From Umbilicaria muhlenbergii (Eukaryota > Ascomycota > Lecanoromycetes > Umbilicariales > Umbilicariaceae), in assembly GCA_000611775.1 (NCBI GenBank), contig KK106982.1, positions 6,070,495 to 6,134,494 of the forward strand: a stretch of DNA of 64,000 bases, given 5' to 3'. Positions 134 through 50,956 of this stretch are shown one piece after another (within the stretch, counting starts at the first letter, position 1; each line of letters starts with the position of its first letter). The notes beneath the pieces were generated by a model. It had not been told where the DNA came from. It made no database searches and saw only the letters and a list, made by a program, of their open reading frames with translations. The translations under genes were made by a program, and so were the position numbers.

Positions 134-2137
134 ATGGGTTATGCCTATGCGCTCGTGTACGTCTCTGACCTGCCGAAAGGGTCCAGCATCTAACCCTGAC
201 CGCAGGCATCTGCAATACACCATTCCACCTGCGGTAGCCCTGACCTTCCTTTACCGCCCACTCTGTACCAGCCTCGACATCTACAAGGTGGTCTTCTTGA
301 TACTCGTAAGAGCTCGGAAACAATCTGAAGTGAATGGCGCTTACCATATTTAGATCGCGGTCCTATCCACAACGCCATGGGACTCGTACTTGATACACAA
401 GAAAGTCTGGTCATATCCCCCACACGCCGTTCTTGGGCCCACGCTCTTTCGAATCCCAGCAGAGGAGTTCTTCTTCTTTGTGATACAGACCTACAATACC
501 TCCTTGCTTTACCTGCTACTCAGTACGCCGACTTTTCACCCCATTTACCTATGTGGAAATAAACGGCTTCGTGATGGGAGGCTTTTGTGGTTGTGGGAGC
601 CACTGGGGCAAGGACTCTTGGTTGGCACTATCTTAGCAGGCTTGTCTATGATTGTGGCTAATGGGGAAGGACTGTACATGGGGTTGATATTGGCATGGGC
701 CGGTCCGTTCGTTCTGTTGCTATGGTATGTTAGGTCGCCCGCCATTTCCAGAATCGAGTCTGATCTCTGCCCGGTAGGACTCTTGCATACCAATTCATTC
801 TGGGCCTTCCGCTTTCGAATACTCTCGTCCCGATTGCGTTGCCGACATTGTATTTATGGGTAGTCGACACGTGGGCACTGAAGCGCGGTACTTGGGTTAT
901 TGAGTCTGGTACGAAGTTGGGACTGCATCTTTGGGATGGCTTGGAAATAGAGTACGGATCCTTCCTTTTAAGTCAGATACCGTACGCTGACCCTGCGCAG
1001 AGAGGCAGTCTTCTTCCTCGTCACGAACATACTGATCGTCTTTGGTCTGGTAGCATTCGACAATGCGCTAGCGATCTTGCAAGCCTTCCCAAATCTTTTC
1101 CCTACAGTCCCGGCATTGCCGTCGCCGGTTCTACTTGTCAAAGCACTATTGATGCCAACAAGCTTATACGATGATAATCGAATAGAAGGGCTGTCACAAG
1201 CCCTTGCGCGGCTGAAACAGAAGAGCCGCAGCTTCTACTTGGCAAGTGGAGTGTTTCAGGGTAGATTGAGAATCGATCTAGTCTTACTGTCAGTACTCTA
1301 GATGTCGGAATCATGACTGCAAGCTGATGTGTTTCCAGGTACTCCTTTTGCCGTGTCGCAGACGACCTGGTGGACAATGCATCGTCACCTGAGGAGGCCA
1401 AATATTGGGTCCATCGGCTCAAACGGTTCCTGAGCTTAAGCTACGACCGATCTCAGCCATCCACTAGGTCTTACATCACGTCTGTGTTTCCTGAGTCAGT
1501 ACAAGCTGCTCTCCTCTTCCTCCCGACAGCCTACCTGTCACTACCGCCTCTCTATGACCTCGTGGAGGGCTTCGTAACCGACCTGAACTTCTCCCTACCA
1601 AGCAACGTCTTTCCCATCTCCGACGAGTCTGCGCTACAGATCTACGCCTCCCGGGTCGCTGGGACCGTCGCCGAATCATGCCTTGAGCTCGTCTACCACC
1701 ACAGCAGCACGTCAACTTCGGAGACAACTCGCCAGGAAATCATCCGTGCTGGAGGACGCATGGGAGTTGCGCTCCAGTACATCAACATTGCACGCGATAT
1801 CGCAGTCGACGCCCGTATTGGACGCGTCTATCTCCCGACCAGCTGGCTCAAGGACGAAGGATTGGCACCATTCGACGTTTTGAAGTATCCAGAGAGCGCA
1901 AAGGTAGAAGCGCTGAGGCAACGATTGTTAGATGCAGCCATGAAAATCTACCACGAAGCCAAGGGAGCTATTGACCGCTTACCACTTGAAGCGAGAGGAC
2001 CCATGAGAGTCGCGGTGGAGAGCTACGTTGAGATAGGGAGAGTGCTCAGGACTCCAGGATACAAGGTTAAGGCCGGCAGGGCTACGGTGCCAAAATCTAG
2101 GAGAGTGATGGTCGCGTGGAAGGCCTTGACTGAATGA
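134..2137 (+). CDS. carRA: Bifunctional lycopene cyclase / phytoene synthase
   Basis: This enzyme joins two geranylgeranyl diphosphates into phytoene and cyclises lycopene ends, so it supplies the first and last core steps of beta-carotene-type synthesis at the endoplasmic membrane. Six exons fit: 134-156, 206-305, 354-724, 778-951, 1001-1288 and 1339-2137, all with GT-AG introns of 48-53 nt. They give an open frame of 584 residues, the usual length for fungal AL-2/CarRA. The first ~240 residues are the hydrophobic cyclase half, with PWDSYLI and [12 protein letters not shown]. The C-terminal half is a trans-isoprenyl synthase with Asp-rich motif DDLVD (about 327-331) and second motif ARDIAVD (about 470-476). 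The start is the ATG giving [16 protein letters not shown], which matches the family N-terminus. It lies 590 bp upstream of the desaturase on the same strand. No truncation is seen, and the identification is firm. Confidence 0.95.
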
Positions 2138-2302
2138 GCGACGAACTTGATACCAAGCACGATAATTATAATAACTAGTAGATACTTGGACAACCATATT
2201 GAATATCGATCCCAACTATGCAAAACCCAGAAGTCTACTTTTAATTTTCTAAGGATGGTAAGAGAATCAGACATAGGTCATGCTTACCTTAGAAAGAGAC
2301 TG

Positions 2303-2567
2303 TCAGCCCTCAGCTGAGAGGCCCCTCAACCACTCAACAATCAAGACAGAAATCTAGGACCAGTTACTGCAGTGATACTAAAGCCGTAAATCTCTTCCAC
2401 TTACCTTATAAGAACTTGGATATATCACTTTTGCTGTTGTGATATCAGGAGGGCCCTCAGCTGGAAATTGCCACTTGTAGTGATAATTAGACACTCACAA
2501 TAGCTCACTATGAGATTTGCCCGGGGGGGCTCTCCCTATGCATGACTTATGTCCGATCCTCTTACCT
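2303..2567. repeat. Dispersed repeat with inverted CAGCTGAGG-type ends, copy 1
   Basis: About 148 bp (2420-2567) match 54010-54154 in reverse orientation, sharing blocks such as AAGTGGCAAT, TCAGCTGAG and TGGTATCACAAC-like sequence. A related TCAGCTGAGAGGCCCCTC occurs inverted at 2303-2325, so the segment may be a small foldback/MITE-like element. It fills most of the spacer between the two carotenoid genes and has no coding capacity. Confidence 0.6.
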
Positions 2568-2727
2568 TATGGCTGGTGTGATTCTAAAGTAACGGAACCG
2601 TTGATTGCCATGCCTTAGTGCCACGGCTAGCTAAAGTAACGATGTAGGGCTGGCACTTCTCTTCCCTCTCACGTCACCATCGACATGTGACATCCAACAA
2701 TAACTCCGTTCGACAGGTTTGGCGGTC

Positions 2728-4531
2728 ATGGGCGAGAAAGTACCGCAGAAGACGGCAATCATTGTTGGTATGGGCCTTCGTACTGAGAACCCGCGAACTA
2801 CCAACCCAAGCTAACGGTGCCCTGTCCAGGTGCTGGCGTTGGCGGTGTTGCAACAGCTGCTCGACTCGCAAAGGCTGGATTCAAGGTCACTGTTTTCGAG
2901 AAGAACGGCTTTACTGGTGGGAGATGCTCTCTAATAAATCATGATGGCTACGTATGATACATTGAATGCCACGTGCCGAGCCGGCAGCTGATACCTATCT
3001 TCAGCGCTTCGACCAAGGACCCTCACTCCTCCTTCTCCCTCACCTGTTCCGCGAAGCCTTTTGTGATCTCGGTACATCGTTAGAGGCAGAAGGGGTTGAG
3101 CTCATGAAATGTGAGCCTAATTACAACCTCTGGTTCAGCGATGGGGAATCCTTTGAACTTTCGACGGATGTAGCCCGCATGAAGGAGGAAGTGGAGAAAT
3201 GGGAGGGTAAAGATGGCTTCGAACGATATCTGGGCTTTCTACAAGAAGCACATAGGCATTACGAGCTCAGTGTTACGCATGTCCTCAAGAAGAACTTCAC
3301 GTCGCTGTTCTCTATGGCGCGCCCAAGTTTCTTCCGACACCTCCTCGCCCTCCACCCATTTGAGAGTATATACTCTCGCGCATCCAAGTATTTCTGGACA
3401 GAGCGTCTTCGTCGTGTCTTTACCTTTGGGAGCATGTACATGGGGATGTCTCCCTTTGATGCGCCAGGGACTTATTCTCTGCTACAGTATACCGAGTTGG
3501 CAGAGGGCATCTGGTACCCTAAAGGAGGCTTTCACAAGGTAGTCTCCGCTCTGGTGTCCGTTGGCGAACGACTAGGTGTCACGTACCGCCTCTCCACACC
3601 TGTAGCACAAATATATCTTTCGCCTCGAAACTCCTCGAACAAGCGTCGTGCAACCGGAGTAACCCTCAGCTCAGGCGAAACAGTGTCTGCAGATGTGGTG
3701 GTCATCAACGCCGATCTGGTCTACGCTTATAACCACCTACTCCCGCCTTCTTCATCTGCCAAATCCCTCTCCTCACGGCCTGCAAGCTGCAGCAGTATCT
3801 CCTTTTATTGGGCCATGGACCGCCAAATACCAGAACTCGTAACCCACAACATCTTTCTCGCAGACGACTATCGCGACTCGTTCGACTCAATTTTTAAGCA
3901 TCAGCTCATTCCAGCCCAACCGTCGTTCTACGTCAATGTTCCGTCTCGTATCGATCCTACAGCTGCGCCGGCCGGGAAAGACGCTATAGTGGTACTGGTA
4001 CCGGTGGGTCATCTGCTTGACGAAAGAGAAGGCAAAGGTGTCGACATCCAGGACTGGGATGCCATGGTTGCTCAAGCGCGCACCACCGTCTTTGCCACTA
4101 TCGAAGCTCGCACCGGCGCCACTGACCTCGCCGGGTCGGTCGTCCAAGAGATTGTCAATACGCCGCAGAGCTGGAAAGAGGTCTTTAACCTCGACAAAGG
4201 CGCTATCCTGGGTTTAAGTCACAGCTTCTTCAACGTGCTGAGTTTTAGGCCCAGCACTAAGCATCCCAGTATCGAGGGTCTACATTTCGTGGGTGCGAGT
4301 ACTCATCCTGGCACCGGAGTGCCGATATGTCTTGCGGGAAGTAAGGTCACCAGCGAGCAAGTGTTGGAAGGATTTAGGATGTCAAAGCCGTGGGAAGGTA
4401 TAGCATCGGGGAGGATGAGAAAAGGGGAAGTCAAGGATATTGACAGGGTGCATGCTTTGCCGCTACTGTCAAATTTCCACATTGCTGTAATTGTTTTAAT
4501 GTTGATGCTTCTGGCGGCTGTATATTACTAG
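2728..4531 (+). CDS. carB: Phytoene desaturase
   Basis: This FAD-dependent desaturase introduces the double bonds that turn phytoene into lycopene or a further desaturated product, and acts after the phytoene synthase encoded just upstream. Three exons fit: 2728-2767, 2830-2951 and 3005-4531 (introns of 62 and 53 nt), giving 562 residues, a normal AL-1/CarB length. The N-terminus carries the dinucleotide-binding fold GAGVGGVATAARLAKAGF followed by VTVFEKN and GGRCS. RFDQGPSLLLLP follows directly after the second intron. The C-terminal FAD signature HFVGASTHPGTGVPICLAG is present, and the protein ends in one hydrophobic segment (HIAVIVLMLMLLAAVYY) that probably anchors it in a membrane. The ATG at 2728 was chosen because it places MGEKVPQKTAIIVG directly before the nucleotide-binding motif. 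Clustering with carRA and an opsin suggests light regulation, though no specific site was identified. Confidence 0.95.
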
Positions 4532-6305
4532 TTTTGATGCATTCGAGGGGCTGGGTGATGGCGTTTGGAAACGATCAAATCATCTAGGAGGCATATTGGT
4601 CATGTCGGGCTTGTATGGCGCTTCAAGAACGGCTCCAGCCACAATGAGAGCCGCAAATTGAAAATCTTTGACTCCAGTACTCCGTACCAGAAGACGTTAT
4701 TGCGGCGACGAACTCTCGATTAGCCATAGCTTGATCGACGTCGTTCTGCCGGCTGAACCGAACAACTCTCACACCCTGCGGCTCAGGACCCCTGTCCTGA
4801 CCACCCCTGTCCTGACCACCCCTGTCCTGACCACCCCTGTCCTGACCACCCCTGTCCTGACCACCCCTGTCCTGACCATCCCTGCACGTCATCACGCGCC
4901 CAAGCTTCGCATGCAGCGTGAAAACCGAAATGGATGTGATGGTGGAAATAGCACCAGTAGAAGCGGATGCTGGCGGCAGCGTGCTCAAGGCCTGCATTTT
5001 GCATCATTACAAAGACCATACAGATCTTCCCGTTTGCCCAGTTTGTTGACCAAATTGTTATGTCATGCGTATGGAGCAGTCCAAAGCACAAGCACCGGGC
5101 ATGGTCCGAGTGTTCCCGTTGCATGCAGTGTGCTGGAATCATAGGTAGAGACGACACGAATGTCAGTCCAAGTCTATTCGAGACGAGATGAAAAGCAAAC
5201 ACGGGATGAAGGGCATGTAACACAATGTCTACCAGCAAACATGGACGTTTGAAATTCGCCATGTCCGAAAATGCGATTCTCGGTCATCCATGCTGTGCTC
5301 TAATCGCCACCGTCGCCCCAAATCGATCGTGGACATGAAACACCGGACGCAGTGCCGCTAACACGGATGGAGAAGCTTCTCACAGGCGAAACAACCATCC
5401 AGAAATGATGATCTGGCCATGCACTCCAAGGCGCATTAGTGCTCGCATCCATGTGAGGAAGTTGAGAAAGTTGAGACGAAGCATCCCAAAGTTCAAAGCG
5501 GCCAAGGGCGAAACAAGCTTCCCCGGGTCGCGGTGGACCCGCCCTTGCAGCCAAGCATTTGTCCCGATGAGATCCCCCCCCCCTGTGGATGAGCTCATCA
5601 TCCACCTGATTCGGGCAGCATCCCTGTCGCCCATGCATTCTGCAGACATGGCCGCAACGGCGAGTTCCCACTCGTAGAGACCGCACTCCCTTCTTCACTC
5701 TAGCTATTTCTTTGGATCTGGTGCAGATGGGTCAAATGACATCCATGACTGGGGACTATCTCCGGCAGCTCGAGCGGATTCGACTCCGGTCGCGCTGGCC
5801 AGTGAAGATTTGCGTCGGGATGGACGGTGGGGCCACCTCCTCCAATGCTCCCGGTGTGAGTTGGCCTCGTTGTGATAGGGCTGGAGGGAGAGACCGTTGC
5901 AGGCCGCCGTTTGACCCGCCGCTTTTCCCTTTTCCCTTTTCCCGCGAGCATCCGTTTGTTTCCCGTAGCTTCTGATCTCACATACTCTAGCATGTCCAGA
6001 ATCGGGGTCGAGGCAAGAGAAAGCCTGGGGCCGATGTCTCATTGGTCGGCAGGAGCGTCCCATGCAAAGACTTGTGAATGTGTCATAACAACGCAAAGGT
6101 CCCCCGGGCACATCAACACTGCTTTGCCTTTTGCGCTAGTGTTGCCTTCTTCAAATACTCTCGTCACCCTATCCTCATCTTCGATCGCACACATCACTCT
6201 CATCGTAGCATCACATTGACATCGAAGCAGGGTTTAGCAATATCTCACTTGCTTCCGTTGCTGAGCTTCTATCGATACTGAGCATACATACGGATTGTAT
6301 TCGCA
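4532..6305. other. Intergenic region between carB and the opsin gene
   Basis: About 1.8 kb without a convincing gene. Both-strand ORFs at 4.6-5.3 kb are mostly translations of a minisatellite. A pyrimidine-rich stretch of repeated CCCTTTT at about 5926-5942 and CT-rich sequence just before 6306 fit a fungal promoter for the opsin gene. No TATA box or light-response element could be assigned with confidence. Confidence 0.55.
4788..4880. repeat. 15-bp minisatellite
   Basis: Six nearly perfect copies of the unit CCACCCCTGTCCTGA run in tandem, with decayed edge copies. The unit length is a multiple of three, so every frame across it reads as a repetitive peptide (for example GQGWS on the minus strand). 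No surrounding gene supports translation. Confidence 0.9.
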
Positions 6306-7495
6306 ATGGGGAATAACGCCCTCAACGTCAACGGTAACACCGTCAATGGTGCTAAGGCTGACATCGCCATCACCACCCATGGATCTGACTGGTACTGGGT
6401 ATGTCTCCTCATCCCTCAAGTCTCCAGATAACTCGCGGCTTACAACGGGACAGGCCGTCACTGCAGCGATGTTTGTCTCGACCTTCATCTTCTGGGGCCT
6501 CGCTTTCACCAAGCCTCGCACCGAACGTGTCTTCCACTACATCACCGCCGCCATCACCTTGGTCGCATCCATTGCCTATTTCACCATGGGCTCCAACTTG
6601 GGCTTTACACCTATCGCTGTTGAGTTTGTGCGTACGAACCGCAAGGTCCATGGCACCTACCGCGAGATCTTCTACGTGCGCTACATCGATTGGTGAGCTG
6701 TGACAACCCGATAAAACATTCAAGGCTACATCTCTAACCTTTGCCAGGTTCATCACGACTCCGCTTTTACTTCTAGATCTCCTCCTGACCGCCGGTCTCC
6801 CCTGGCCAACAATCCTCTACACCATCTTGATGGACTGGATAATGGTCATCACCGGTCTAGTCGGCGCTCTCGTAGTGTCAAATTACAAGGTACGTCACCC
6901 ACCACCCCCATCTCCACGAAAACCCCATCTCCACAAGAACACAACTAATCCATCACAGTGGGCCTACTTCACCTTCGGCTGCGTCGCCCTCCTCTTCATC
7001 TGCTACAACGTCGGCTGGGTCGCCAACAAACACGCCAAAGCCATCGGCCCCGACGTCCACCGCACCTTCCTCATCTGCGGCGTCTGGACCCTCTCCCTCT
7101 GGTTCCTCTACCCCATCGCCTGGGGTCTCTGCGAAGGCGGCAACGTCATCGCCCCGGACTCCGAGGCTGTCTTCTATGGCATCCTGGACTTACTGGCCAA
7201 GCCTGTCTTCGGTGCGCTTCTGATCTGGGGGCATCGCGGGATTGACCCGAATCGTCTTGGGTGAGTTGTTCTGGTCTACGGGCATGGGGGAGGTGGAGAG
7301 AAGAGGGGAAGGTTTGCTAATGATGATGATAGGATCCATATCCGCGACTATGATGAGATTCCATCGGTGGGCGAGAAGGGTCATCGTAATAACGGCCTCT
7401 CGGGCGGTGTCAGTAATGGGGCGGGGACCGGTGCTGCCGCGCCTGGCACCACTTACCCTACTACTGCGGCTCCGCTTGCTAGTGACAGGGTCTAG
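6306..7495 (+). CDS. carO: Microbial (type I) rhodopsin, proton-pump type
   Basis: This is a seven-helix retinal protein of the plasma membrane, resembling fungal CarO/Leptosphaeria rhodopsin. Five exons fit: 6306-6398, 6454-6692, 6748-6889, 6959-7260 and 7333-7495, giving 312 residues. Helix C reads VRYIDWFITTPLLLLD, so both the proton acceptor (D110) and the internal donor (D121) carboxylates of bacteriorhodopsin are kept, which predicts a light-driven outward proton pump rather than a slow sensor. Helix G reads LDLLAKP, with K239 as the retinal Schiff-base lysine and D235 as the counterion partner. The C-terminal tail is Gly/Thr-rich. The start is the ATG before MGNNALNVNGN. It lies on the same strand as carRA and carB, as in known fungal car clusters where carotene is cleaved to retinal for the opsin. 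The assignment is firm; pumping is inferred from residues. Confidence 0.95.
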
Positions 7496-7900
7496 ACTTC
7501 TGCAGTTGGAAGTTAGGACATGACGATCTCCATATGGTGTCACCTACCTGCCTCTGGACGACACGGCTGTTTTTCTGTAATTTTCTTCGGCTATTCAATT
7601 AGCGTGTCATAGCCTGGTGGACTCTTTGTCTTTTGTGGAGATACGAACGAATAGGGGTAGGGCTAGACATGGCTCCGTCGACGTTTGTGGTGTAATAGTC
7701 GGGTAGTTGAAAGGGGGACGGTAGAGTTATGGTAGATACCTCAAATGAATGATACGCTTGTTACTCTGATTGTGCGGTTGCTTGGGTAGTAGATAAAGTA
7801 GTGTTGGGTCGGCCGCCCAGTTGCAGTATGGACGTCTGGTTGTTGCTAGGTTTGCTATGGCGAATATAGTAAGAGAGCTAGCTATCGACTATTACAACTA
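7496..7900. other. 3' flank of the opsin gene up to the transposon end
   Basis: About 400 bp, with no gene seen. It ends at the TA dinucleotide preceding the 44-bp inverted repeat. Confidence 0.5.
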
Positions 7901-7944
7901 ACGTCCGTCCCTGCGTCGAGAGACGCACCCCGTCGCGAGACAAA
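7901..7944 (+). repeat. Left 44-bp terminal inverted repeat
   Basis: Starts immediately after TA (7899-7900) and ends at GAGACAAA. It pairs with 15669-15712 at about 42 of 44 positions; the two differences are in the CGTCGCGAG versus CGTAACGAG block. Confidence 0.9.
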
Positions 7945-8501
7945 TCTACGGTTTAAGTATCTCAAGTCTCTTCCTCACCAGTCTACAAATTTGTTATCAA
8001 TATGTTACTGTTCTTCAACTATTTCTCCCCTAGGAAACCAGTCTGCAATGAGAAAATCACTGAGGTTGATCATGCTGTCGATTGTTTCATTGACGCCATC
8101 AATCGCTGTTTCAGCTGTTCCCCCCTGCTCAATTGTGACTGTCAGAGTCTCTTCGCAGTTCAGAGCACTTAGGGAAAGGTTCTATAAAAAAAGAATATAA
8201 ACCCAAGTTTTGAAGACAATTGGAGAGGAGAATAAAGAAGTCTGAGAGTAACGCCGTGCGAGAAGAGTGTCCCAAAACGCCACATGTATTTAGTGAGCAT
8301 TAGCCTAAATTACATTGTACTGTATTACAGCCCAGACTTGCTGTATTTTATTGACCCACTATTTCAAACTTCGTTAAACGTGTGGCGTATAAATAGCATG
8401 TTTCTTGAACCTTCCATAGGCACGTGCCCGGTGGTACGCTGTTGCCTAACCGCTGCCTGCCACTCGTCTCGTTCACAACACCATCACCACGGTAGGCTAA
8501 T

Positions 8502-10244
8502 ATGGACAGAGCCAGTCAAGTGCTGGCGCAAGGCGTTCCTCATGGCGTGCCTAATTCATACTGTGCGTTAGCAGATCATGATAATGTCCCTCACTCTACC
8601 CTTCATCATCGTGCTCGCGGACGACGCTCGATAGAAGAGAAGGCTCAAAGCCAACAGTACCTCACCCCGTGAGAAGAGGATGTTGTTGTTACGTTCTTGT
8701 TACAAATGTCCGATCTTGGACAACCAATACGGATGAAGTTCATCCCTTCAATAGCTTTCATTGCCACCCGCAAGCGGCCCATAGCAGACAGACCACTCAA
8801 GCCTTCAGGGAGGAACTGGGCGAAGGCTCTAGAAAACCGCCATCCAGTACTTCAAGCGAGAAGAGTTAGCGCGTTAAACTGAAACCATCACGAGAAAAAT
8901 ATCTATTGAAAGGTTATACACTGGTTTGAGGTGATTGGAAAGATATTACAAGATCCTGCTATTCTAGCAGAGAATATCTATAACATGAATGAGACTGGGG
9001 TTATGTTATCCATGCCAGGCTCTGTTAAAGTCCTTGTAGGTAAGGATGACAAACGAAACTAAGGTATAAAGGCGCGCGTGTTAAATGAACATCAGTAACT
9101 GCGATCAAGTGCATCAGTGCTGATGGTAGGTATCTAGACCCTATGATTATTTGACCAGTCATCACTCATCAAAGCAACTGAACCACGTTCTCTACCCCCG
9201 GGTGGCAGTATGCGTACTCTGAATCTGGATATACCGACTCTAAGATTAGCTTAGAGTGGCTTAAGCGTATATTCCATCCCCAAACTCAAGAGCGAGCTAA
9301 CAAGAAGCCACGGGTGCTGATATGTGACGGCTTCAGAACGCATGAGACACTCGAAATCTTGGAGTTTTGTTTCAAAAACAATATCATCCTCTGTCGTCTC
9401 CCCTCTCACACCTCCCACAAGCTCCAGCCTTGTGATGTTGCAGTGTTTGCCTCATTGAAGGTAGCCTATCGCGAACAGGTTGATCGACTAGAGCGAGGAG
9501 GTGTGAATACAATTGGCAAGCAGCACTTTACCTCTCTTCAGCCCGGCAAGGGAAAAAGCATTTACGCTAAAGAATATTAAGGCCGGTTTCGCTGCGAGTG
9601 GTTTATTCCCGTTCAATCCAGACAGAGTACTCAGACCTATGCCAAAGCCCCCCGCTGACCTAAATGTTCCAAAAGCCAATGAGGTAAAGGTGGGGTCTTG
9701 TCCGCAAGATGTAGTACTACAAACGCCTGTGACGTCAGTGTCAGCAGAGGGTTTCATGTCGCTGCAAAATCTAATCATCAAGCAGGATGCTTATGCGCTT
9801 GATAACATGAGCAAACAGAAGTTAGAGAGGCACGTACTGAAGCTCACTAAAGCTGGCCAAATGTTCCTTGTCAAGGATGCTCTCCAGGAGGACCAAATTC
9901 AATTCTTGAACACAATCAACAATGAAGCCAAAGTTCGATGATCAACTAAGTCGTTGGTACTAGGGAAGGCGAAGGTCATGAGCTATGAGGACCTTGAGGA
10001 AGCACGAGCGAAGCGTGCTGACAAAGAGGCTGCCAAAGAAGCCAAAGGCAAGGGCAAGCGTGGTCGGAAGCGCAAGAGTGCTGCGCTAGAGGCAGATACG
10101 CCAGAGCCAAATGCGAAGGTGGTGCGAATGAGCGAAGCGCCAGCGCCAACGAGAGCCTCAGTAGTGCAGATGAGCGGAACACCGGTTGCGGAAGATGAGA
10201 TTGTGCCAGAACCATGGAGAGCCCCAGTGGCGCGGATGTATTAG
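8502..10244 (+). pseudogene. Fot1/pogo-family transposase, decayed
   Basis: A DDE transposase of the pogo/Fot1 group. Recognisable parts in order: N-terminal HTH/CENP-B-like region (FLLQMSDLGQP, NRHPVLQARR), the first catalytic block (NMNETGVMLSM), the central DDE region (LICDGFRTHETLEILEF and PSHTSHKLQPCDVAVF) and the basic C-terminus (MSYEDLEEARAKRADKEAAK, KGKRGRKRKS). The reading frame is broken: an in-frame TGA follows 56 codons, more stops lie at about 8880-9110, and a frame change falls near 9530. The first catalytic aspartate of the usual MDETG is an asparagine here. Some stops fall where the family has tryptophan, as expected from C-to-T mutation of the opposite strand. The gene cannot make active transposase, so any recent movement would need an enzyme supplied from elsewhere. 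Confidence 0.88.
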
Positions 10245-10339
10245 CGGAAGATGCGAAAGATGCCGTACGAGGGATAGAGAATTAATGGACTGATCCTCAG
10301 CTTAGATCGGTTTGAGGCAGGCTCACGCTGGCTTCACGA

Positions 10340-10770
10340 CCTGTTGCTGTACAGTAGAGTTGGTCTTCATCGCCCTTGTGGCGCAATAATAGTAATGGTC
10401 GTGCAGACAGGCAAAATAGAGATAGAGGCCAGCCTTTGGTGTCCCTCTGCCGTGCATGCCCGTGTTTTGATATGCCCTGCGATGGCCGTTGCCGCCATAG
10501 TTGTGCCCGCTGTTGTGCTCGCTATCGTTGTGCCCGCTGTTATGCTCGTCATTGTTATGCCCACTATTATGCCTTGTTATATGTTCTGGTAGCCGTTCCC
10601 TCCATCGTCTTGTATCGTCTTGTATCGTCTTGTATCGTCTTGTATCGTCTTGTATCGTCGTATATCGTCGTGCACACCGCCGTGCTCACAGTCGTTTCCA
10701 CGTTGTCACCGTCTGAACCGCCATTAAGGTCTTCGCCAGGTTATCGCAGTCTCACTACGCAGCTCTAACA
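10340..10770. repeat. Degenerate short tandem repeats downstream of the transposase
   Basis: A 10-bp unit TGTATCGTCT is repeated about six times around 10609-10670. Before it lies a degenerate array of GTGCCCGCTGTTGTGCTC-like units (10500-10575). Both belong to the transposon interior and no protein is supported. Confidence 0.75.
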
Positions 10771-11485
10771 CTACCCTGAAATATCTTCACACTTTAGCCG
10801 GGTATTCTATTCGCGCTTCGCGCGGCATAACTGAAAACTTGAGGACGGTCATCTCGTCGAAGGAGGCAACGTAGGAATTCAGGGTGGCGGCGGCGGCAAT
10901 AAAGGAGCGAATTCCCTATGGATACCAGGGCTAACAACTGTAGAGGTTTATCGTTCTGTAAAAGTTCATTGCGACAGAGGGGTATCTCTCAACTGAAAGA
11001 GAAAACAGCTGATTTTGGCAAAACATCAGCCACTTCTTGCTCCCGTTTGAGAGGGTACAGTACAACTCAGAGTATATCAGGAAAACAGAATTTTTCGGTA
11101 CAGTCACTTGCAAAATCAGTTTCCTCCTATTACACTTAAAAAAATTCTGAGCACAGACCATGTCAGCTAATTTTGACCCTTCTTAATCTGACTAATATGG
11201 TTGATACAAAATATGGATCTATAAAACCTGTTCTGCCCTAGCTAACTAGCTTTGGTGGTTTCAAAGCATTGAATGTTCAATTGTATCAGTGGCTAAAGAA
11301 GAGACATAGATCTTGGAAATGAACTGATCATGTTACTGTAACACGTGAACAGTTGAATATTCTTGGCGTAGTTTCTAGAACATTCGGTGACAACATTCAG
11401 TGGCAACATTCAATAGTATATAAACATCAGCTCCCCTAGGACCGTCTCTATCAAAGTTATTATAATAAAATATATATAATAGAAT
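10771..11485. other. Non-coding segment between transposase and NLR gene
   Basis: No gene is seen. A TATATAAAC sequence at about 11418 followed by an AT-rich run may be the remnant of another repeat or its promoter, but no terminal structure could be confirmed. The right part probably contains the NLR gene's 3' UTR. Confidence 0.35.
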
Positions 11486-14400
11486 TTAAGAAGAGCAGTT
11501 CAGAGGAGACTTGTTGAACGAGAAGTTGATTGTTAAGACCCGACCTGACGGGCAGCCAATGATGATAGTGTTTGACGCGATGGCTGAACATGATGGCTGG
11601 TACTCCAATGGTAGCCAAAGTACATTCTGACCATTCCATGTGATCCACGCCTGATCGGCATTTAAACCATAGCCGTGATGCTGAGGCTCTTCTAAAGCAG
11701 TTGCAACCAGCGCTGTATTTGAATTCGACGATATATCCCATAAGGTAGTGCCTGTGTCAGTTAGAATATATGAACTGGTAGTATCGAACGCTACATTATA
11801 GACTATCCGGTCAATGTTGAGTGTCTTGAGGCAGGCGCCGCTGCCAGCATCCCAGATCTTGACCGTCTTATCATGTGATCCCGATACTACCTGGGTGCCG
11901 TCATGCGAGAAGGCCACCGACCTGACCCAACCGCTGTGACCGTAGAGCGTTTGTATGCAAGCACCCCAGTCGGCTTCCATGGCCGGCTTCGTAGTGATCC
12001 AGTCTAGCTCTTCGTCCTGGAAAAGCTCTCGCGTCAAACTATGGACGGGGCTGAACAGAAGGGCTGACGAATATGCTTGCAGAGGAGTATTCTCAATGAC
12101 GTTTCTACTAGACAAAATAAATCGATGTGCATCTTGAACCAGACGGAAAAGTTGAGATTCAGACGAAATTTTCTAGATCAATTAATATTCGCAAGTATAC
12201 TACTTTGGTTAAGTAATAACTAACCGTAAGCAAATCGATAAGCTTGGCTATTGCTAGAACGCCGTCTGAGATGCCTTTTATAAGGCTTAGAGCTTCTAGC
12301 CAGTGAAGAAAGTGCTTCCTCAGAAAGACATCAATCGTACCGTTATCATAGAGGCCCACTTCATCGTGGCTGCTTTTGATCTTGCAAAGATGGTCAACCC
12401 AGTAGACACAAGCGTATCGAATCGGAGCGAGTGGATCTGGATCGGGGTGTTCGACTTTGTTAATAGAACAACCTGGATGCAGCAAGTTATAGACATCCCT
12501 TTGCAGTGCCTTATCCATGGCCTCAATCAACCGTAACACTATTCGTTGCTGCTCTTCTGTGCGCCCATTAGGGAAGATCTCAGTGCTTGCCTGCTCCACA
12601 AGGTAGTCCTGCGCTGATTGGTGAACGAATGAGATGGTGCGTTCTCGAAGTGTCAGAAAAGAGCCACAAAGCCCTATGATCTCCGCCAGAGCTTCATAAT
12701 CACTGGAGACACCGTCAGGTATGTCGACAAAGGACGCCAGTTCTTCCAACGTAATAGGCCGGTACACGACTGAGACGACGGCCAGTATACTTTTGCAGAG
12801 CTCAGCATCGTCTGAGATGCAGATCTGGTCCATCATCCGCCTATAGAAAGCATCAAGTCCAGGCGGAAACGCCGTCAACTTCTTTTGAGCCTTCCATCCA
12901 GGGATATTGGCGAGTTCTTGGCAGACCAAGGCCACCCAGAGGAAGGTGCCGTTTGCGTTCAACGACAAGTAGCGCTGGACAGCGTCCCGCGTATCATTGT
13001 TGTATCTATTTCGTTCCCCTAACCAATCAACCTTAAACTGGACGTATGTGGTAACAGCTGCAGAGACGGATTTTTCATTCAGCTCAAGACACAGCCTTCC
13101 TTTCTGCGTTGCAGTGTAGAGATCCTTCTCGATGCTCAGCCAGTTGCGACTAGAGACGATCCATTTGACGCGTGAGTATGCGGGCGACTTCTGAACGACA
13201 AGGTCAAGAAGCAGGCTCCGGTCTGTGGTACACTCGTCAAGCGCGTCGATGATCAGGTAGGTGCTCTGCAGGATTGGATCGTCCAAAATGCTCGTGAAAA
13301 TCTCGGACAAGGCCACCCAGGCATTTGCGTCCTCGAAGACCTGTTTCCCCGCAGGATCGTACTTCTCCCGTACGTGTGAGATGAGCGATGGCTGCCTGTT
13401 GATGAGCAAGTAGATCAGGCCGCGTAGGACAGCGGTGGCACTGTTGATACGCGCGTCGATGGCCTGGCAGAAGAAGAAAGAAAGGGTCTCAGTATCAGTA
13501 ATTGACTTCTCTAACTCATTAATGATACCGCAGAGCAGCATTGTCTTGCCCTTGCCAGGATCTCCCTTGATCCAGAGCAGAGGGCTCTGTCCATCGTCGC
13601 GCCATCGTTGGAAATCGTCGTTGTAGAGAACCCAGCGGTACAAGTCCGCTAGTAGGCCACCTTTCGTTTCCTCGATGCGCTTCTTGTCATGGCGGGGATC
13701 GGTCGTCCGCAGGTCCTTTAGGCACGTTTGTGTCTGGGGATCTGTAATATGCTGGTCGATCTTCTGCAAAACGCCTAGCTGATCTCGAGAGACCTTGATA
13801 TGCTCTTGCATCTTAATGACCAAACTGTTGAGAGCTCTGCGTGAGGCCTCTGCTTCCCGATCAAGCTTCCTTAACGCCTGAAGACTACTTCCAGACATAG
13901 CCGTCTCAAACTTCAAAATAAGCGCAGCGTCACTATTCTTCACGTCCTGGAGCTTCTCGTCCCAGCCGTCGTAGTTGATGGCCCCTCTGAAGAAGTTCTT
14001 GGTTCGGCTGCGATAGAACCGTATAACGCTCTGCGCCTGAAACTCAATGATGAGTTTAAACAGATCCACAAGACGCTCTGTAAGATCAGCCTTCAGGTCG
14101 GGCTCCATATCTTCAGGTAACAGCAGCGACTCCATTGCGACGTAGTATCGCATCTGGGAGGTGACGTATGTCAACCCATCCTGGTTTGCAGCTTCGACGG
14201 CGGTCGGGTTCTTCAAGAGTGGAAGGACAAGAGAGACACCTGCCATAATGATGGACGCGTATGGTAGGTCTTTGACAGCATCCTTGATGTAGTCTTCAGC
14301 CCATTTGACAGCCCCGGCGACGTTTGCCATGACATCTTGCAGGATGATCTCATGTCCCAACAGCGTCGTGCTGACCTTCTTGTCTTCCATATGCTTCAAA

Positions 14401-15159
14401 CCAAGTTCCGTTATCTCTTTCAGCTTCTCTCGTCGTGCGATCGCATCGTACTGAGGGATTTGATTCGTGACCTCGCCGACGTCTTCTGTCTCGTTCGGGG
14501 CTGGTGGTGCCTTCATCTGGGCTATATTGCCTCGGGTCAGCTTTTGGGGAAAGCTGTCTAAGCCCGGGCGGACGCTTACCTCTGATGAGCACCCTAGACA
14601 AAATATCTTCATACACGGCAATTAGATTGGGACTCTTATCCTTTTCGTTCTTAAGAATATCATATGCTCTATCCCAGAGGGAACAGTCTGTGGTCAAATC
14701 CTCTATGATGTCTGTCACTTGGTCGCTTGACGCTCTCTGGGATATCTCTGTTGCAGCCTTGGCGCCAGTGTTGTTTGGAGAGCTGTGCAATGCCGTGTCG
14801 GATGTGGTAGAAGGCACCGCCGCAGAAAGCGAAGCGGAGGCATCTATAGTCAATCGCTGGATGGCTGGGATTGCCGTGGTTGATGGAGCGGCTTGCTTAG
14901 AAGGGTGGAGGACATTTGCTAGAGCTTGTTAGGACGAGAAAGCAGAGCTTCATCACTGTGTAATACTTTGCGACGAGTTCGCTGAGGAGACGGCGCCATC
15001 CTCCTTCTTTGACTTCGCCGAATCCCTTCCACCATGTCTGATGAGTCGTTTTAACCACTCCTTAACAGGTGAATTGTCAGCCATGGCTACCGCGAGCACT
15101 TTCGACGACGAACAGACTCGTTCGCAGTGGCGAGAATGATTGTGCGGTGAAGTTGACAT
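11486..15159 (-). CDS. NACHT-WD40 NLR-like protein (HET-E/NWD type)
   Basis: Fungal NLR-like proteins of this layout include heterokaryon-incompatibility factors such as HET-E. Exons on the minus strand are 15159-14967, 14918-14580, 14521-12225 and 12172-11486, with introns of 48, 58 and 52 nt (the first with a CTAAC branch site). They keep one frame of 1171 residues. An internal ATG at 15084 (MADNSPVKEWLKRL) would give 1146 residues and may be the true start. Counting from that ATG: a NACHT_N-type helical region (SLWDRAYDILKN) near 120-330, Walker A GDPGKGKT at about 472-479, Walker B LIIDALDE at about 575-582, then the NACHT helical region (FVHQSAQDYL). One canonical WD40 repeat (GHSGWVRSVAFSHDGTQVVS...KIWD) and the usual post-WD C-terminal segment follow. 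No break is seen. It lies in opposite orientation inside the 7.9-15.7 kb transposon. Function in self/non-self or microbe recognition is inferred from the family. Confidence 0.88.
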
Positions 15160-15668
15160 CCGATTTTGCAAACGCACACGTCACGTGTCAGCCACACGCT
15201 TAGTAGCCACAGGCTTTATTATGTAAGATAAAATATGCTGTAATTACTGTAACCACTATCCCCCTCTACTGTATTACCAAGTGACCAGGGACCCTTGATC
15301 GCTTGATTGGAGCCTTTGGAGGTACCAACCCATGTGGCGATGACGCATGACACAGCACTCCTTGGTTACCACAGGGCTGACAAAAACTTCTCAGCATCGT
15401 GGCGAGACTTGGAAATCCAGATCCAACCGTTCTATGAGTTTGAAAGGCGGAAAGAGCTCAATGGTGGTGCTGTGGGTTGAGGGGTCCTATTACACCATGA
15501 AAAAAGGCTCTTCGCAAATCATAGGGGCGGCGACGACGTGATCGTAATTTTCGGAGTAAGCGGGCTAGGAGTGTTCAGGAGGGGGCACACAACATAACTG
15601 ACATAAAACTACAAGAAATTTTGATGCGTTCACAGAATCAGAGCCGCTTAAATTTAAAGTACCTATAT

Positions 15669-15712
15669 TTTGTCTCGTTACGGGGTGCGTCTCTCGACGC
15701 AGGGACGGACGT
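15669..15712 (-). repeat. Right 44-bp terminal inverted repeat
   Basis: The reverse complement of the left end, immediately followed by TA (15713-15714). The 15160-15668 stretch between the NLR gene and this repeat holds no visible gene. Confidence 0.9.
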
Positions 15713-15937
15713 TATCATCAAGTAATCAAAGAGCCGCCCTTTGATATGCAGGGACAACCCTAGCTGAATATTGTTCGGGAGGGCTTCAGGCGGGAATATA
15801 CGGATAGTTGCAAGGGACTTTCAAGAACGCAGTGTTGTTTTCTGTATAATCCCAGACAAAAGAATTATGTGCATTGACGCAGAAAGATAGCATCTAGATT
15901 ATTCATACTATTAAAAACACTGAACTTACTTTTCATC

Positions 15938-39917: not shown

Positions 39918-40172
39918 TGTTGTAATGGGACGATATAGAGACCAAATAAATGTATTGTATCTGCCTAAATATCACCCAAATGATATAAATGAACGTAAGG
40001 AAGAAAGCAGAAACTTGAGGCTTTCGAGCCGTTAATATACATGTTAAGGAGCTTTTCGCTAAGCCAAAACATATGTACACTCATGACGTGACTGCTTCTC
40101 TTGCTAGGAACCCCTGCTCTAAACCCCTGCCTCAATGACGTCTGCTCAGCGGTGAATCAGTGAAATTCAACA
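39918..40172 (-). repeat. Copia 3' LTR
   Basis: 255 bp, TGTTG...CAACA. Carries the sequence TTAAGGAGCTTTTCGCTAAG shared with the LTRs at 51622 and 52742. Confidence 0.92.
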
Positions 40173-43100
40173 CTCCCTCTTCGGCTTCGCTGCCAGCGGC
40201 TTTCAGGGGTAACTCTGAAACATAAAATGAATAAAATAATGTTTAATGAGCGTTAGATTTGGCCTCTGTTAGTGGTAGGTAAAATGGCGGCCAAAATGAC
40301 TCAACTAGAACTGAAATAAAAACATGAGTCGACAACCACGTGCTCTGAAGACCTAGGGAGTTCATCAGAAGGGGATTTCAGTACGCTCTTTCAAATGATC
40401 ATACTGACTAAGCTTGAAAAAGCAGTCCTGAAGAACCCTAAGCGTCGATGAGACCAAGTAGGGAAAGTTCAGTCTGGAATTTCTCCCTCATAAGTGGCTT
40501 CATCAAGCAGTCAGCAGGCATATCAGCAGTAGGAATGTAGATGAGTATAATAAGGCCGTCTTTTAAGGCTTCCTTTACATAATGGTACTGCACCTTGATA
40601 TGCTTGGTCCTGGCGTGGAATTCAGGATTTTTGGTGAGCTTCATGCTCAACTGGTTGTCCTCATATAATTGGGCTGATTCAGCCTCAGTGATTGATGTGG
40701 CAGTGGTCTTTTGCTTTCAGCTAGATCATGATATTGCTCCCTCAGCAAGGGTAAACACATATTCATATGTGAACTTCCTGTCTGTGACGTCTTCAGTGTA
40801 GTCTGAGTCTGAATAGCCCTTTATACTCATAGAGGTAGCTCTTGAAAATGTAATTTTCAAGTCTTTCATGCCTTGCAGGTAATGAAACACACGCTGTAAG
40901 CCTGCTTAATTTCAGACAGACAGGGCGTGGCAAAATTGACTGAATTTACTCACAGTGAAGGTCAAGTTCAGGTGAGTGACAGTCATGATGTACATCAGGC
41001 TTCTGACCGCCTTTTGATATTTCAATTGATCCGCCATTGGCTCATCATCTAGGGCTGGTTTTATGTATTCATAGCCGTCTATTGGTGTAGAAACAGCCTT
41101 TGAATGATTCATAGAGAACTCCTTAAGAACCTTGTTAACATAAGCATATTGATCAATCATAAGGGTTCAATTTTTTTGATTTCAGCATATTTGAATTCTG
41201 AGGCAGACATTTGACTCACTCAAATTCTTCATATTGTACGCCTTTTGAAGCTTCATTTTAACTTTCATAATTGCTTTCATTTCCTTTGAGAAAATGAGCA
41301 AATCATTAACATAGAGGGCAATAATTACCTCTGAATTCTCATTTAGAAAAATGAAATTGTCTTCAGACAGTCTGACAAACCCTAGGTCATGTAGGGTGAC
41401 TCAGAAGGTGTTGTTTTAAACTCATTTAAACTGCTTTAAATCATATAACCTCTTGATTAAGTGACAGGTCATTTTCTTAAATCTCTTATATGACAACCTC
41501 TCTGAGAGTTTCATATATATTTCCTCTTTGAGCTCACCGGTGAGGTATGCGCTAATGATGTTCATTTGATGTATATGCATGTCTTCATACGCTGCAATAG
41601 CCAGAAGCATGTGTAGTGAGTTGAAACATAAGATTGAGGCAAAGGTTTCTTCATAGTTGATCTCATATTGTTGAGAAAATCCTCTGGTGACTAGCCTGGC
41701 TTTGAAGCGCTTGATAAGGTCACTGAAAGTGTATTTAACCTTGAATACTCATTTAGAAGTGATTGGTTGGCGCCCTTTAAGCAGTTTGATCAATTCTCAT
41801 GTCTCATTTGCTGTCAAAGAATTTAACTCTTCTTCTATGGCTTGTAATCATTGATGCTGATAAGTAGGGCTCTGGACAGCCTCCTTGTACATAGAAGGCT
41901 CATGTATATGCCTCTGCACTGTCATATTAACATAGTGAGGGTTTGGTTTCATTATTCAGTCAGATTGAGTAGTGTATGGCACTGAGGCCTGCTGCTGCGG
42001 CCTTAAATTCTGCTTCAGAATTTCAGCAGCTGGTTCAGGGGTCAAGTGTATGATTTCAGAGGCTTCTTCAGAGTCAGAAGAACCTTCCTCATTATCCTCA
42101 GCTTGTTTCAGTTGCATATCATTGTTTGAATTTTCTTCAAAATTTTCAGTTTGATTTTCAGGCCCCTGAGTTGATGTCAGAGGCTCTGATAAATTCATCA
42201 CTGCTTCAGGGCCTTCAGAGCTTGAAGACATTGCTTTCTCACTTTCAGTGCACCTCTGAGCAAGTTCCTGTGGCGTTAAAACCACTGAGTAATCATCATC
42301 ATTCATATATGAGTTCATGAAGTCCTCATTTGCTTTGAAACATTCTGAATTTTTCAGTAAGCTTCCACCTTTCTCTCCCTTGAGGAACAAAACATGTGTA
42401 TGTATTTTCACCTGCTTTTTCACTTGGTTTCAGACCTGAAATTGCTGGTTGCTCTTACAATAACTCATGAAAACCCCTTTATAAGACGTGTTTTCAAGTT
42501 TCACCTGTTTTTCCTTCAGTATATGGCAATGAACAACACACCTGAATGGGTGTAGGTGTTCAATGAAGGGTTTAAACTCTTTATATAATTCATATGAAGT
42601 CCTTCCTTCATGGTCATCTCCTAAAGGAAGGTGATTCTTTAGGTAACAGGCGGTTTTGATGACTTCACCTTAAAATTTAATTGACAATTAAGTGTTGTAA
42701 AGCATGCATCTAGTTGCTTTCATAATCATATGATTTAAGTGTTCAGAGACGCTGTTCTGCTCAGGTGTGTAAATGATGATAAATTCAAATTTCACCCCCT
42801 TTGACCCTCATATGCTTGCCAATTTCATATATTCTCCGTCATTGTCAGCCTGTACAACCTTCAATTTCTCACTGGTTTCTTTCTCAGCTTTCATCTTTCA
42901 AGTCTTGAATATTTCATAGATATACATCTTCTTTGCCATTAAGAAAATATCAGAATATCAGGCAAATTCATAAATAAAAATAACAAAATACTGGTTTTCA
43001 CCTAAAGTATTAACAAAATAGGCTCCTCAAATGTCTGAATAAACTCATTACAGATGTTTTATAATCATTGACTTTAACTACTTGACCTGTACCTGTATCA

Positions 43101-44484
43101 TCTTGTTATGCAAGCATGTAAAGCAGGCTTTCTACACCTCATTAGGGAGTAATTCAAGAGTTATACCCTTCACACACGGCTTGAGGCGTTGCATACAGCT
43201 TGCCTCAGCATGATTAAACCTCTGATGTCACTTCCAGTAGTCAGATTGAGCCTGTGTGAAAAAATTGAAATTTTCAGAGGTTTCAGGGGTAATGTGCCCT
43301 AAACTCATTTTTGAATAAAGGGTGATGAAACTGGCAATCATGCTGCCTGATACTGCTCTCATTAGCTTTGAAGTGAGCTCTGATGTAGGTGATCCTCCCT
43401 CTGCTGTCACTGAGGCTGTCAGGCTGCTCATCAATTTTTGATAAGCTTGAACCTTAAAGACCACTTTTGCGCTTGTTGACTTGACAACATAAACTGAATC
43501 ATGTTGGTTTGCTGTGGTCATGATGCTTTCATTATGCTTAAAAACAACATTTTTAAGCTCAAATTTGACTGTTATTCCGTGCTTGCTTGCTGCCTCAATC
43601 AACAGCAAATTTTCATCCAATTTGAGGACATAGAGGACGTCATTTAGAGTGAGTTTTCTCCCTTCAAAATTGACTTCCACCTTGCTCATATCAGCTGCTT
43701 TTATTGAGTGCTCATTGGCTAAGCAGACTTCCGTGTAATAGTTCTGAATTTCAACAAAAATTGCTTGATTTGAAGTCATGTGATGGCTTGCTCTGAAGTT
43801 CACAATTCAGCAGTCAGGGGTTAGTTTTAAGTTGATTAAAGCTTTCATAATCACTGCTTTTCATGCTTACTCATCTGAGTTGAACTCATTGTCCTGGCTA
43901 GTCAGATCTTTTGAATTTTTCAAATCTTTCACCAGCCCTGAATTTTTGTTGACTTGCCGTGCATTTGCCTTGAACTTTGATGATGATTTAACTCTGTTAG
44001 AAGGTAGTTCTTCCCCGTCTTTCATCTTCAAAGCATAATAATCAGAGGTGAAATGCTCTCTTTTCTGACATTGAAAACATGTTTTTTCTGTCTTATCATC
44101 TTTGCCTTTGCTTCCTGCTTGAGCTGCGTTTGCAGTGGCATTATTAGTTGATTTATTATTCAACACTTCTTTCATTTCTCACTCCTTCAATTGGCGTAGA
44201 ACAGTCTTGATTTCAGGGTTCATGATTTCATTGTTTATTCAAAATACAACTGAGCTGTAAGGCTTCTTCTTTAAAGAGTCAAGGAACACTTCCTGAACCA
44301 TGTCATCATTGATGAGTGTCTTTGATTTAAGCATCATAATCTCTGCTTGAATTTTCTTCAAGGTGTGATAAGCCTGCTTCATCATCTCCTTCAGTTCTTG
44401 CTTGTAATTGATGAATGCTTTAAGTTGTGATCAGTAGTACAACTTGCCCTTAAGCTTCTTGATGTTCTCAAGGCGGTCTCAAAG

Positions 44485-44834
44485 TGTTACACCTCTCACT
44501 AAAGGGTACCTGTTGGGTACACATAGCAAGCGTACATGTGGTACTGCTCATGATGCTCAGGGCATGAGCACCTTGAGCACTCAACTGCTCATGATGCTCA
44601 GGGCATGAGCACCCTGAGCAGTAAGATTACACATGCAGAGCAATACAGTCACACATGAGTCTTCTAAAGTATTATATAATCACAGGTAGATTCATAGTTA
44701 GGAGCTCATGCTCAACTCATGTATTAAATGCAATCTCATAAATCTACTACCTTTTAGCTTATTCAAGTCTACATGTGATCAATAGTTCATTGAATGATTG
44801 TATTATCCTCATCACTATGACATCACCTGTTACA
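44485..44834 (+). repeat. Gypsy 5' LTR
   Basis: 350 bp, TGTTACACC...CCTGTTACA. Contains two copies of a ~40-bp unit built on CTCATGATGCTCAGGGCATG. Confidence 0.9.
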
Positions 44835-49978: not shown

Positions 49979-50553
49979 TTACTCATTGTGCAGTGAAACT
50001 GCATCAGTTTCAGCAAAGAAATTCACTGAAAGCCAGTCTGTGCTGTTGAGGTCAGAAGCCTCAAGTGCAAGGAAGTCAAAAGAAGGTCTGTTAAAAAGAT
50101 CAGCAGCTACAGCAGCTGCATGCTCATTCATCTTTAGCTCTTCAATGTTTTGAAGTTCAGTACAAATCAAGTCTGACTGCTTCTTCTGCAGGAAAGTGAT
50201 TTGTTTGTGAAGTCTCTCTTTCTTCACTCTCATCTCTCACTTTTGTGTTATGATGACATCCTTTTCCTTTTTCAGGTGATGAATCTTCACACTCACCTTA
50301 TTGATCTCCTCCAGGGATATGAACAAGTCGCAAGAGATGCTCAGCCTGATGCAGGCATCACACTTGTCACAATCATCTGACATCTTACACTCCTTGTCAT
50401 CAGTTAAGCAATGACTACACGTTCACATGGCAATCCTCCCGTTTTCAGTGATTGAATCAGTCAAATGAGAATGATGAGAAGTAGATGACTTCTTCTTTCT
50501 GATACCAGATGAAGGCATGAGGAAGGTTGAGTTTTCAAGGATGAAAATGTTGA
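49979..50553 (-). pseudogene. Antisense accessory ORF of the gypsy element
   Basis: Reading opposite to gag-pol, this region encodes a Ser/Lys-rich start, a Cys/His cluster (CSHC...C...CDKCDAC) of zinc-knuckle type and a coiled coil (KKERLHKQITFLQKKQSDL), ending SVNFFAETDAVSLHNE. It is part of the fossil element and is broken. Its protein-like composition and position suggest a former accessory gene; the function is unknown. Confidence 0.5.
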
Positions 50554-50565
50554 GGGGGGAGCTAA

Positions 50566-50956
50566 TGTTACACCTCTCACTAAAGGGTACCTGTTGAGTA
50601 CACATAGCAGGCGTACATGTGGTACTGCTCATGATGCTCAGGGCATGAGCACCTCAAGCACTCAACTGCTCATGATGCTCAGGGCATGAGCACCTTGAGC
50701 ACTCAACCACTCATGATGCTCAGAGCATGAGCACCCTGAGCAGTAAGATTACACATGCAGAGCAGTATGATCACACATGAGTCTTCTAGAGTACTATATA
50801 ATCACAGGTAGATCCATAGTTAGGAGCTCATGCTCAACTCATGTATCAAATGCAATCTCATAGGTCTACTACCTTCTAGCTTATTCAAGTCTACATGTGA
50901 TCAGTAGTTCATTGAATGATTGTACTATCCCCGTCACTATGACATCACCTGTTACA
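50566..50956 (+). repeat. Gypsy 3' LTR
   Basis: 391 bp, longer than the 5' LTR because it holds three rather than two copies of the ~40-bp CTCATGATGCTCAGGGCATG unit. Confidence 0.9.

Follow-up and report, generated by a model that had tools for sequence, protein, structure and literature searches.

A probable Fot1/pogo-type transposon with an NLR-type gene as its cargo in Umbilicaria muhlenbergii

A stretch of 64,000 nucleotides from Umbilicaria muhlenbergii (assembly GCA_000611775.1, contig KK106982.1, positions 6,070,495 to 6,134,494 of the forward strand), called the window in the following, contains an element of 7,816 bp at positions 7899-15714, both terminal TAs included. It holds the remains of a Fot1/pogo-type transposase and a gene of the NOD-like receptor (NLR) type. 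Positions without a contig name are window coordinates; C1, C2 and C4 denote contigs of the same genome, which was searched over 34,788,950 bases in 7 contigs. The order of the parts is left end, transposase on the plus strand, NLR gene on the minus strand, right end. The left terminal inverted repeat (TIR; 44 bp plus the target TA, 7899..7944, + strand) and the right one (15669..15714, - strand) are 46 nt long with the TA and alike at 44 of 46 positions (96% complementary), with a TA at both element ends. The left boundary was also located by means of a second copy on C4 (see below) and the right one by comparison of ends. The runner-up inverted pair in the same 10 kb had 27 nt and 70% complementarity. 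A first-pass annotation of the window had described TA-flanked 44-bp inverted repeats bracketing 7.8 kb, with transposase and NLR gene in opposite orientation, and both features were real.

The transposase pseudogene occupies 8503..10244 on the + strand. A remnant of the DDE_1 catalytic domain was located at 9095..9487 (+ strand; profile positions 5-136 of 177, 3e-28), and the DDE_1 match (PF03184) in one transposase fragment had a value of 1e-23. The reading frame is broken by premature stops at 8670, 8880, 8907 and 9939 and by a frame lesion near 9531, in agreement with the decayed pogo transposase reported in the first-pass annotation. A scan of two window frames revealed no HTH domain; HTH_Tnp_Tc5 and DDE_1 were both detected in a relative on C1.

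The NLR gene is located at 11486..15084 on the - strand. In our gene model it starts with the ATG at 15084, ends with a stop at 11486 and consists of four exons (15084-14967, 14918-14580, 14521-12225 and 12172-11486) separated by introns at 14966-14919, 14579-14522 and 12224-12173. The frame is open over 1,146 codons for a protein of 1,146 aa. All of its domains lie on the - strand: NACHT_N (PF17100), the N-terminal domain of NWD NACHT-NTPases, at 13920..14486 (2.4e-41), a NACHT/NPHP3_N NTPase domain with the Walker A motif GDPGKGKT at 13146..13637 (1.7e-34 for PF24883, 5.6e-13 for PF05729), a winged-helix domain (GPIID_WHD) at 12591..12809 (1.6e-6) and a single canonical WD40 repeat at 11849..11965 (3.6e-14). 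A scan of three reading frames of the NLR gene gave no HET match at E 0.01; the N-terminus is NACHT_N, not HET, and the assignment to the HET-E type was not upheld. NACHT_N was found at three places of the genome, i.e. the window, the C4 copy and a remnant at C4:1375836, which showed no pogo similarity across its 10 kb. The window copy of the element carries no sign of C-to-T mutation and has a GC content of 48%.

A search of the genome with 62 bases of the left end yielded two matches, the element's own two ends. Such counts of DNA matches in the own genome are lower bounds, and a heavily mutated end on C4 was indeed missed; it emerged only when the full-length element served as query and in a scan that tolerated mismatches. 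The whole-element search disclosed a second copy at C4:1246631-1252493 and C4:1268431-1269856. Its main pieces correspond, in order, to element bases 13-1155, 1400-5441 and 5438-6863, and it holds left end, transposase and NLR gene in the same order as the window. The boundary was mapped in a purine/pyrimidine code, which is unaffected by C-to-T mutation. Compared in blocks of 20 bases, window and C4 agreed at 5-13 positions in the ten blocks that precede the TA and at all 20 positions in each of the six blocks that begin with it. Because identity switches at this point, the C4 copy lies at another site and starts exactly at the left-end TA. This supports the earlier proposal of a single transposable unit with NLR cargo, the second copy beginning at the left-end TA at an unrelated site.

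Of the 1,002 substitutions between the two copies, 963 were C>T or G>A changes on the C4 side, and other differences amounted to 32 of 6,595 aligned bases (trimmed alignment). The C4 copy therefore derives by duplication from an almost identical element and has since been mutated. Its NLR gene contains 41 stops from C>T or G>A changes. The sequence context of these changes (C4:1246631-1269856 versus window 7899-14761) was CpC 54%, CpG 48%, CpA 13% and CpT 17% changed. Classical repeat-induced point mutation (RIP) is CpA-biased, and the context on C4 is unlike it. Furthermore, the dead NLR copy is split by a 16-kb insertion (C4:1252493-1268429) flanked by long terminal repeats at 1252493-1252926 and 1267996-1268429, which are 434 bp long and 91% alike.

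The C4 copy also bears on a different explanation of the locus, in which two separate short pogo elements, an old transposase and a solo end, would flank a resident NLR gene. Such arrangements do occur in this genome, since a HeLo gene of the locus L039 is bracketed by a pair of outward-facing Fot-type ends although it is not their cargo. At the window locus, no inner copy of the terminal repeat was found within the element at up to 12 mismatches of 35, the two ends are nearly identical, and the block of transposase and NLR gene is found again at C4, which contradicts separate elements. That each end belongs to a separate short element had been named in the first-pass annotation as one refuting case; it was not seen, and we consider it scarcely credible.

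The premature stops of the transposase at 8670, 8880, 8907 and 9939 are stops in the C4 copy as well, while the frame lesion near 9531 is restricted to the window copy and a 241-bp deletion to the C4 copy. At the four shared stop positions, either the C1 relative or a Lasallia protein reads through. The transposase was already dead before the window and C4 copies arose. Because four premature stops are common to both copies, their movement needed a transposase in trans, and the earlier proposal of mobilisation in trans is supported by the same stops. The genome yielded no intact member of the transposase subfamily described below; at each of its six loci the DDE_1 match is interrupted by stops.

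The cargo gene was compared between the copies with regard to its WD region, where the window has one canonical WD40 repeat and the C4 copy six units of 126 bp. Excluding C>T and G>A, 14 differences between window and C4 change an amino acid; six of them lie within the WD40 match (residues 988-1026) and eight in residues 975-1041, counted for the one window unit against whichever of the six C4 units was aligned to it. The best protein match of the window NLR (58 member sequences, source ENA, longest contig 7,927 bp) was 97% identical, differing at 24 of 817 residues, and at three residues it shares the state of the C4 copy against that of the window. The HNWD and HET-E proteins of Podospora anserina, as far as the available text of PMC2873952 describes them, likewise have a central NACHT domain and WD40 repeats in 126-bp units. 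In those proteins the repeats form a long C-terminal array of variable length, while in the present case the two copies of one element hold 1 and 6 units, respectively. The concentration of amino-acid differences in the WD region recalls their diversifying repeats, with the reservation that one unit was compared with one of six. Unlike these proteins, the window NLR has NACHT_N in place of HET at its N-terminus and one canonical WD repeat instead of the ten reported as necessary. According to the same text, Podospora HNWD proteins require at least 10 WD repeats for incompatibility and fewer than 6-7 repeats are unlikely to form a propeller. Because the window has one canonical WD40 repeat compared to six units on C4, the sensor predicted from its sequence is probably non-working. 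The description of an apparently intact NACHT-WD40 gene holds for the open frame of 1,146 aa, but in the WD region a single WD40 stretch passes. That the present copy would spread a working incompatibility gene, as the first-pass annotation had assumed, is unsupported by one canonical repeat against the requirement stated in the available part of PMC2873952.

A protein search with a 132-aa piece of the transposase gave 39 matches, six of which had 59-100% identity while all others had at most 42%. The six loci of this subfamily are the window, the C4 copy, one locus each on C1 and C2, and two further loci on C4, designated C4a and C4b. An NLR-type gene is present in the same layout at four of the six, which represent two elements in duplicate; of the other two loci, one is next to a HeLo gene and one has no detected cargo. 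C4a (1295746-1302795, 7,050 bp) and C4b (1404476-1396589, 7,888 bp) are copies of a second element with different flanks. They are 85-91% alike in their main pieces, and transitions make up 760 of the 791 differences between them. Like the C4 copy, both are full of transitions and have a GC content of about 35%. Purine/pyrimidine identity of C4a and C4b was 20/20 inside and 9-13/20 beyond the TA-flanked ends on both sides.

In the same code, the right ends of element 2 scored 39/46 against the window end, and its left and right ends 40/46 against each other. Among 16,328 TA-starting 46-mers drawn from the examined regions of C4, C1 and C2, a score of 46 was reached by the end of the C4 copy only and a score of 39 by the two right ends of element 2 only. 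The next scores were 37 (n = 1), 36 (n = 2) and 35 (n = 11, both left ends of element 2 included). The right subterminal region of the window element (15085..15668), which extends from the start of the NLR gene to the right end and is the presumed promoter side, aligns along its whole length with the flank of element 2 between end and cargo start. In a search with this flank over 1,283 stretches, those of element 2 scored 200, 184.5 and 153 at a mean of 110 (standard deviation 19) and a next best value of 140; in the reverse search the window scored 208.5 and the next stretch 159.5. In an earlier test of the right flank, a value as high as that observed came up in one of 300 random controls, the control pool itself including the element 2 loci. 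On the left, the non-coding subterminal region (7945..8502) contains a part, 7950-8217, that is also present in C4a and C4b with about 70% identity. Judged by the matches of ends and right flank, the two elements are akin in both outer parts, with different cargo in between.

The cargo of element 2 is located on the strand opposite to the transposase. SesA (PF17107) was detected at 1.6e-9 in C4a, and TPR_10 repeats at 1.1e-59 in C4b, the only copy scanned for them. Judged by these sequence matches, the cargo is of an NLR-type architecture (SesA-DUF7779-TPR). It is decayed, with stops in both copies. The dead cargo contains an array of units of about 126 bp (C4:1298842-1300031; TPR in C4b), which are 79-83% alike despite mutation. 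The first-pass annotation had suggested a look for other loci with the same ends around NLR genes. Element 2 does bracket an NLR-type gene, yet its ends are related and not identical to those of the window element.

The second copy might also be the result of segmental duplication or ectopic recombination instead of transposition. The C4 copy is without a right end, and the C4 stretch examined is rich in repeats, which speaks for such events. Similarity nevertheless starts exactly at the left-end TA, and the element 2 pair is bounded by TA-flanked ends on both sides. These are the limits of similarity that transposition predicts, and we regard duplication or recombination as very unlikely.

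Taken together, we favor the view that the locus is in all likelihood a single non-autonomous DNA transposon of the Fot1/pogo class whose sole cargo is the NLR gene, and that it belongs to a small transposase lineage, two elements of which share related ends and layout and carry different genes of the NLR or cell-death kind. This suggests that NLR-type genes can be spread by such mobile DNA. Several observations weigh against this interpretation. The right end of the C4 copy was not found in mismatch and purine/pyrimidine scans of C4:1238001-1310000 (minus 1278001-1280000), where similarity stops at element base 6863, and the complete unit with both ends is one instance as regards a NACHT-WD40 cargo. 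Insertion into TA rests on ends and copies within one genome. The left ends of element 2 score only 35/46 against the window end and would not stand out by themselves. With respect to the element 2 cargo, SesA in C4b is borderline and under the cut-off (7.6e-5), DUF7779 is under the cut-off in both copies (2.3e-4 and 4.3e-3), and an NTPase domain was not detected. In their middle regions the two elements are no more alike than expected by chance; the middle of the window element (10245..11485) is non-coding with short tandem repeats of a 10-bp unit (10604-10663) and a 27-bp unit (10493-10573). In addition, the WD array of the window gene is contracted and the function of the cargo is predicted from sequence, and for the C1 member no cargo domain was detected in 6618001-6629300, with one strand scanned.

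A transposon of this kind may have originated when an ancestor captured a gene between transposase and right end, and the coding part would later have been exchanged between related ends. A related transposase acting in trans would have excised the 7.8-kb unit at its 44-bp ends and inserted it at a TA. The right flank may drive expression of the NLR gene, whose product would be a STAND switch with a WD40 sensor, NACHT-mediated oligomerisation and N-terminal signalling, and this switch is now probably disabled at the sensor through WD repeat loss.

As to the role of the cargo, the NLR genes might be passive passengers, caught by chance, moved without effect on host or element and decaying like the transposase. 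This is a serious alternative, compatible with a real transposable unit, and we hold it to be quite possible, if somewhat short of even. The other copies are dead, by 41 stops in the C4 NLR and by stops in both element 2 cargoes, the WD array of the window gene is shorter than that on C4, and the C1 member is without detected cargo. On the other hand, the same broad class of genes occupies the same place in the same orientation in two elements of one lineage, and the window gene is open throughout. NACHT was found at at least 64 places and NB-ARC at at least 16, about 1% of genes (8,294 genes are reported for U. muehlenbergii in the available part of PMC9232553); two such captures by chance appear unlikely, with a rough estimate in the order of 1e-4.

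The remaining two loci of the subfamily extend the picture of transposon and cargo. The C1 locus has an end and a transposase. On C2, a left end at 6594120 matched the C1 end at 41 of 46 positions, the next best among 22,482 46-mers being 38, and its spacing to the transposase was 578 bp compared to 586-628 bp elsewhere. A gene with a HeLo domain (5.2e-37) adjoins the C2 element on the opposite strand and resembles the HET-s structure 2wvn (3.2e-33). This arrangement suggests that the HeLo gene is cargo. A right end on C2 was not found, the best purine/pyrimidine scores of 34-37/46 being at chance level. A HET-s prion motif is not claimed for this gene, as a PDB search with the 73 residues that follow HeLo gave no match at E 1.

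Proximity of NLR-type domains (NACHT, NB-ARC, NACHT_N, HeLo and SesA) to DDE_1 was then counted with all listed matches included. Such a domain was present within 8 kb at 6 of 43 places, namely at four of the six subfamily loci (window, C4a, C4b and C2) and at two of the 37 others; the C4 copy falls outside these six owing to its 16-kb insertion. In both cases beyond the subfamily the gene is located outside the element. C2:687250 was rejected as an NLR carrier, for it is an ordinary element of 1,987 bp with the NB-ARC gene outside; this Fot-type element of another family (C2:686536-688522, equal to L037:2536-4522) has perfect 52-bp TIRs. C2:2223894 was rejected as a HeLo carrier, for its HeLo gene lies between two outward-facing Fot-type ends and is not cargo. 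The HeLo gene between outward-facing Fot-type ends at L039:3348-5851 has an uninterrupted frame of 641 aa and illustrates that adjacency does not equal cargo.

Outside the species, the C-terminal part of the transposase has an uninterrupted version in Lasallia pustulata (LPUS_05564, 201 aa), from which it differs at 3 of 200 residues, the stop left out. The phytoene desaturase encoded in the left flank of the element is identical to that of L. pustulata at 470 of 507 residues and differs at 37, and the divergence of the two proteins is distinct by Fisher's test (p 0.0017). Such closeness is unexpected for a dead gene and, at the level of these sequences, hints at a recent exchange between species; it is one comparison of two genes that encode unlike proteins. 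A wider reading would be that one pogo lineage has repeatedly carried self/non-self and cell-death genes, swapped them between related ends (NACHT-WD40, SesA-TPR and perhaps HeLo) and moved between species of Umbilicariaceae as an allorecognition shuttle. We put this forward tentatively, as less probable than its opposite. No related loci were found in viral contigs, and among the 120 + 120 matches listed there was no hint of a single foreign contig with both the NLR gene and the transposase.

Fot1 has TIRs of about 44 bp, a size of 2-3 kb and a transposase only. Like Fot1/pogo elements, members of the Tc1/mariner superfamily in filamentous ascomycetes, the window element has a DDE_1 transposase, 44-bp TIRs and TA ends. 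It differs by its size of 7.8 kb in place of 2-3 kb, by the NLR gene it carries and by its own transposase having been dead before it was copied. The other Fot-type family in the same genome also has about 2 kb (1,987 bp) and no NLR gene inside. Starship elements, reportedly treated by Gluck-Thaler in 2022, are likewise fungal mobile elements with NLR cargo. As far as the accessible portions of these reports go, NLRs are recurrent Starship cargo (PMC12506042, PMC9594970, PMC9815663), and Starships have a tyrosine-recombinase captain and sizes up to about 700 kb (PMC12134995). The element described here has a DDE transposase, TIRs and a length of 7-8 kb instead. One might yet think of a fragment of a larger Starship into which the pogo parts were inserted later, given the NLRs that Starships are known to carry (PMC12506042 and PMC9815663, in the portions available). 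Against this, the block that moved starts with a TIR and its TA, and the combination of ends, transposase and cargo layout is found more than once. No DUF3435 captain turned up in the five element reading frames scanned, with no search aimed at captains. A Starship origin is the least probable of the alternatives we weighed, and the transposon interpretation is retained.

Another parallel is ToxhAT of wheat pathogens, which is described in the accessible part of PMC6737239 as a hAT-type TIR element of 14.3 kb with 74-bp TIRs and eight genes, among them a Patatin-TPR protein that its authors count in the NLR family. It is RIP-mutated and interrupted in some species, and its authors found no target-site duplication. 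Both are TIR DNA elements with genes besides the transposase, one of the NLR family, as far as that source describes; the present element is pogo-type, has TA and carries one cargo gene. Among the papers listed by a literature search, no title or opening of an abstract pointed to an NLR-carrying pogo/Fot1 element; the search covered a minority of subscription papers, and this is no proof of absence. TIR and Starship elements carrying NLRs are already known; what is unusual here is that the NLR gene is all the cargo of a pogo element and that related ends enclose different cargo. The finding addresses the open question of how strain-to-strain differences in fungal NLR repertoires originate. A small and simple TIR element with a lone NLR gene and a sister element makes the idea testable with ordinary tools, i.e. 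empty TA sites and presence/absence among strains. It also sets the spread of NLR genes by transposition against a repeat-mutating process of the host, with the window copy unmutated and the other three of the four NLR-bearing copies mutated.

The left flank of the element (1328-7264) resembles a carotenoid cluster. It contains an open reading frame (ORF) at 1328-2137 that is phytoene synthase-like by eye, a phytoene desaturase-like ORF at 2966-4531 and a bacteriorhodopsin-like gene at 6704-7264; the element begins about 635 bp past the opsin ORF. Further to the right, positions 40001-52000 are AT-rich (GC 34-44%) with a high CA+TG ratio and resemble mutated repeats, and ORFs at 58362-60833 resemble a Ty1/copia polyprotein by eye.

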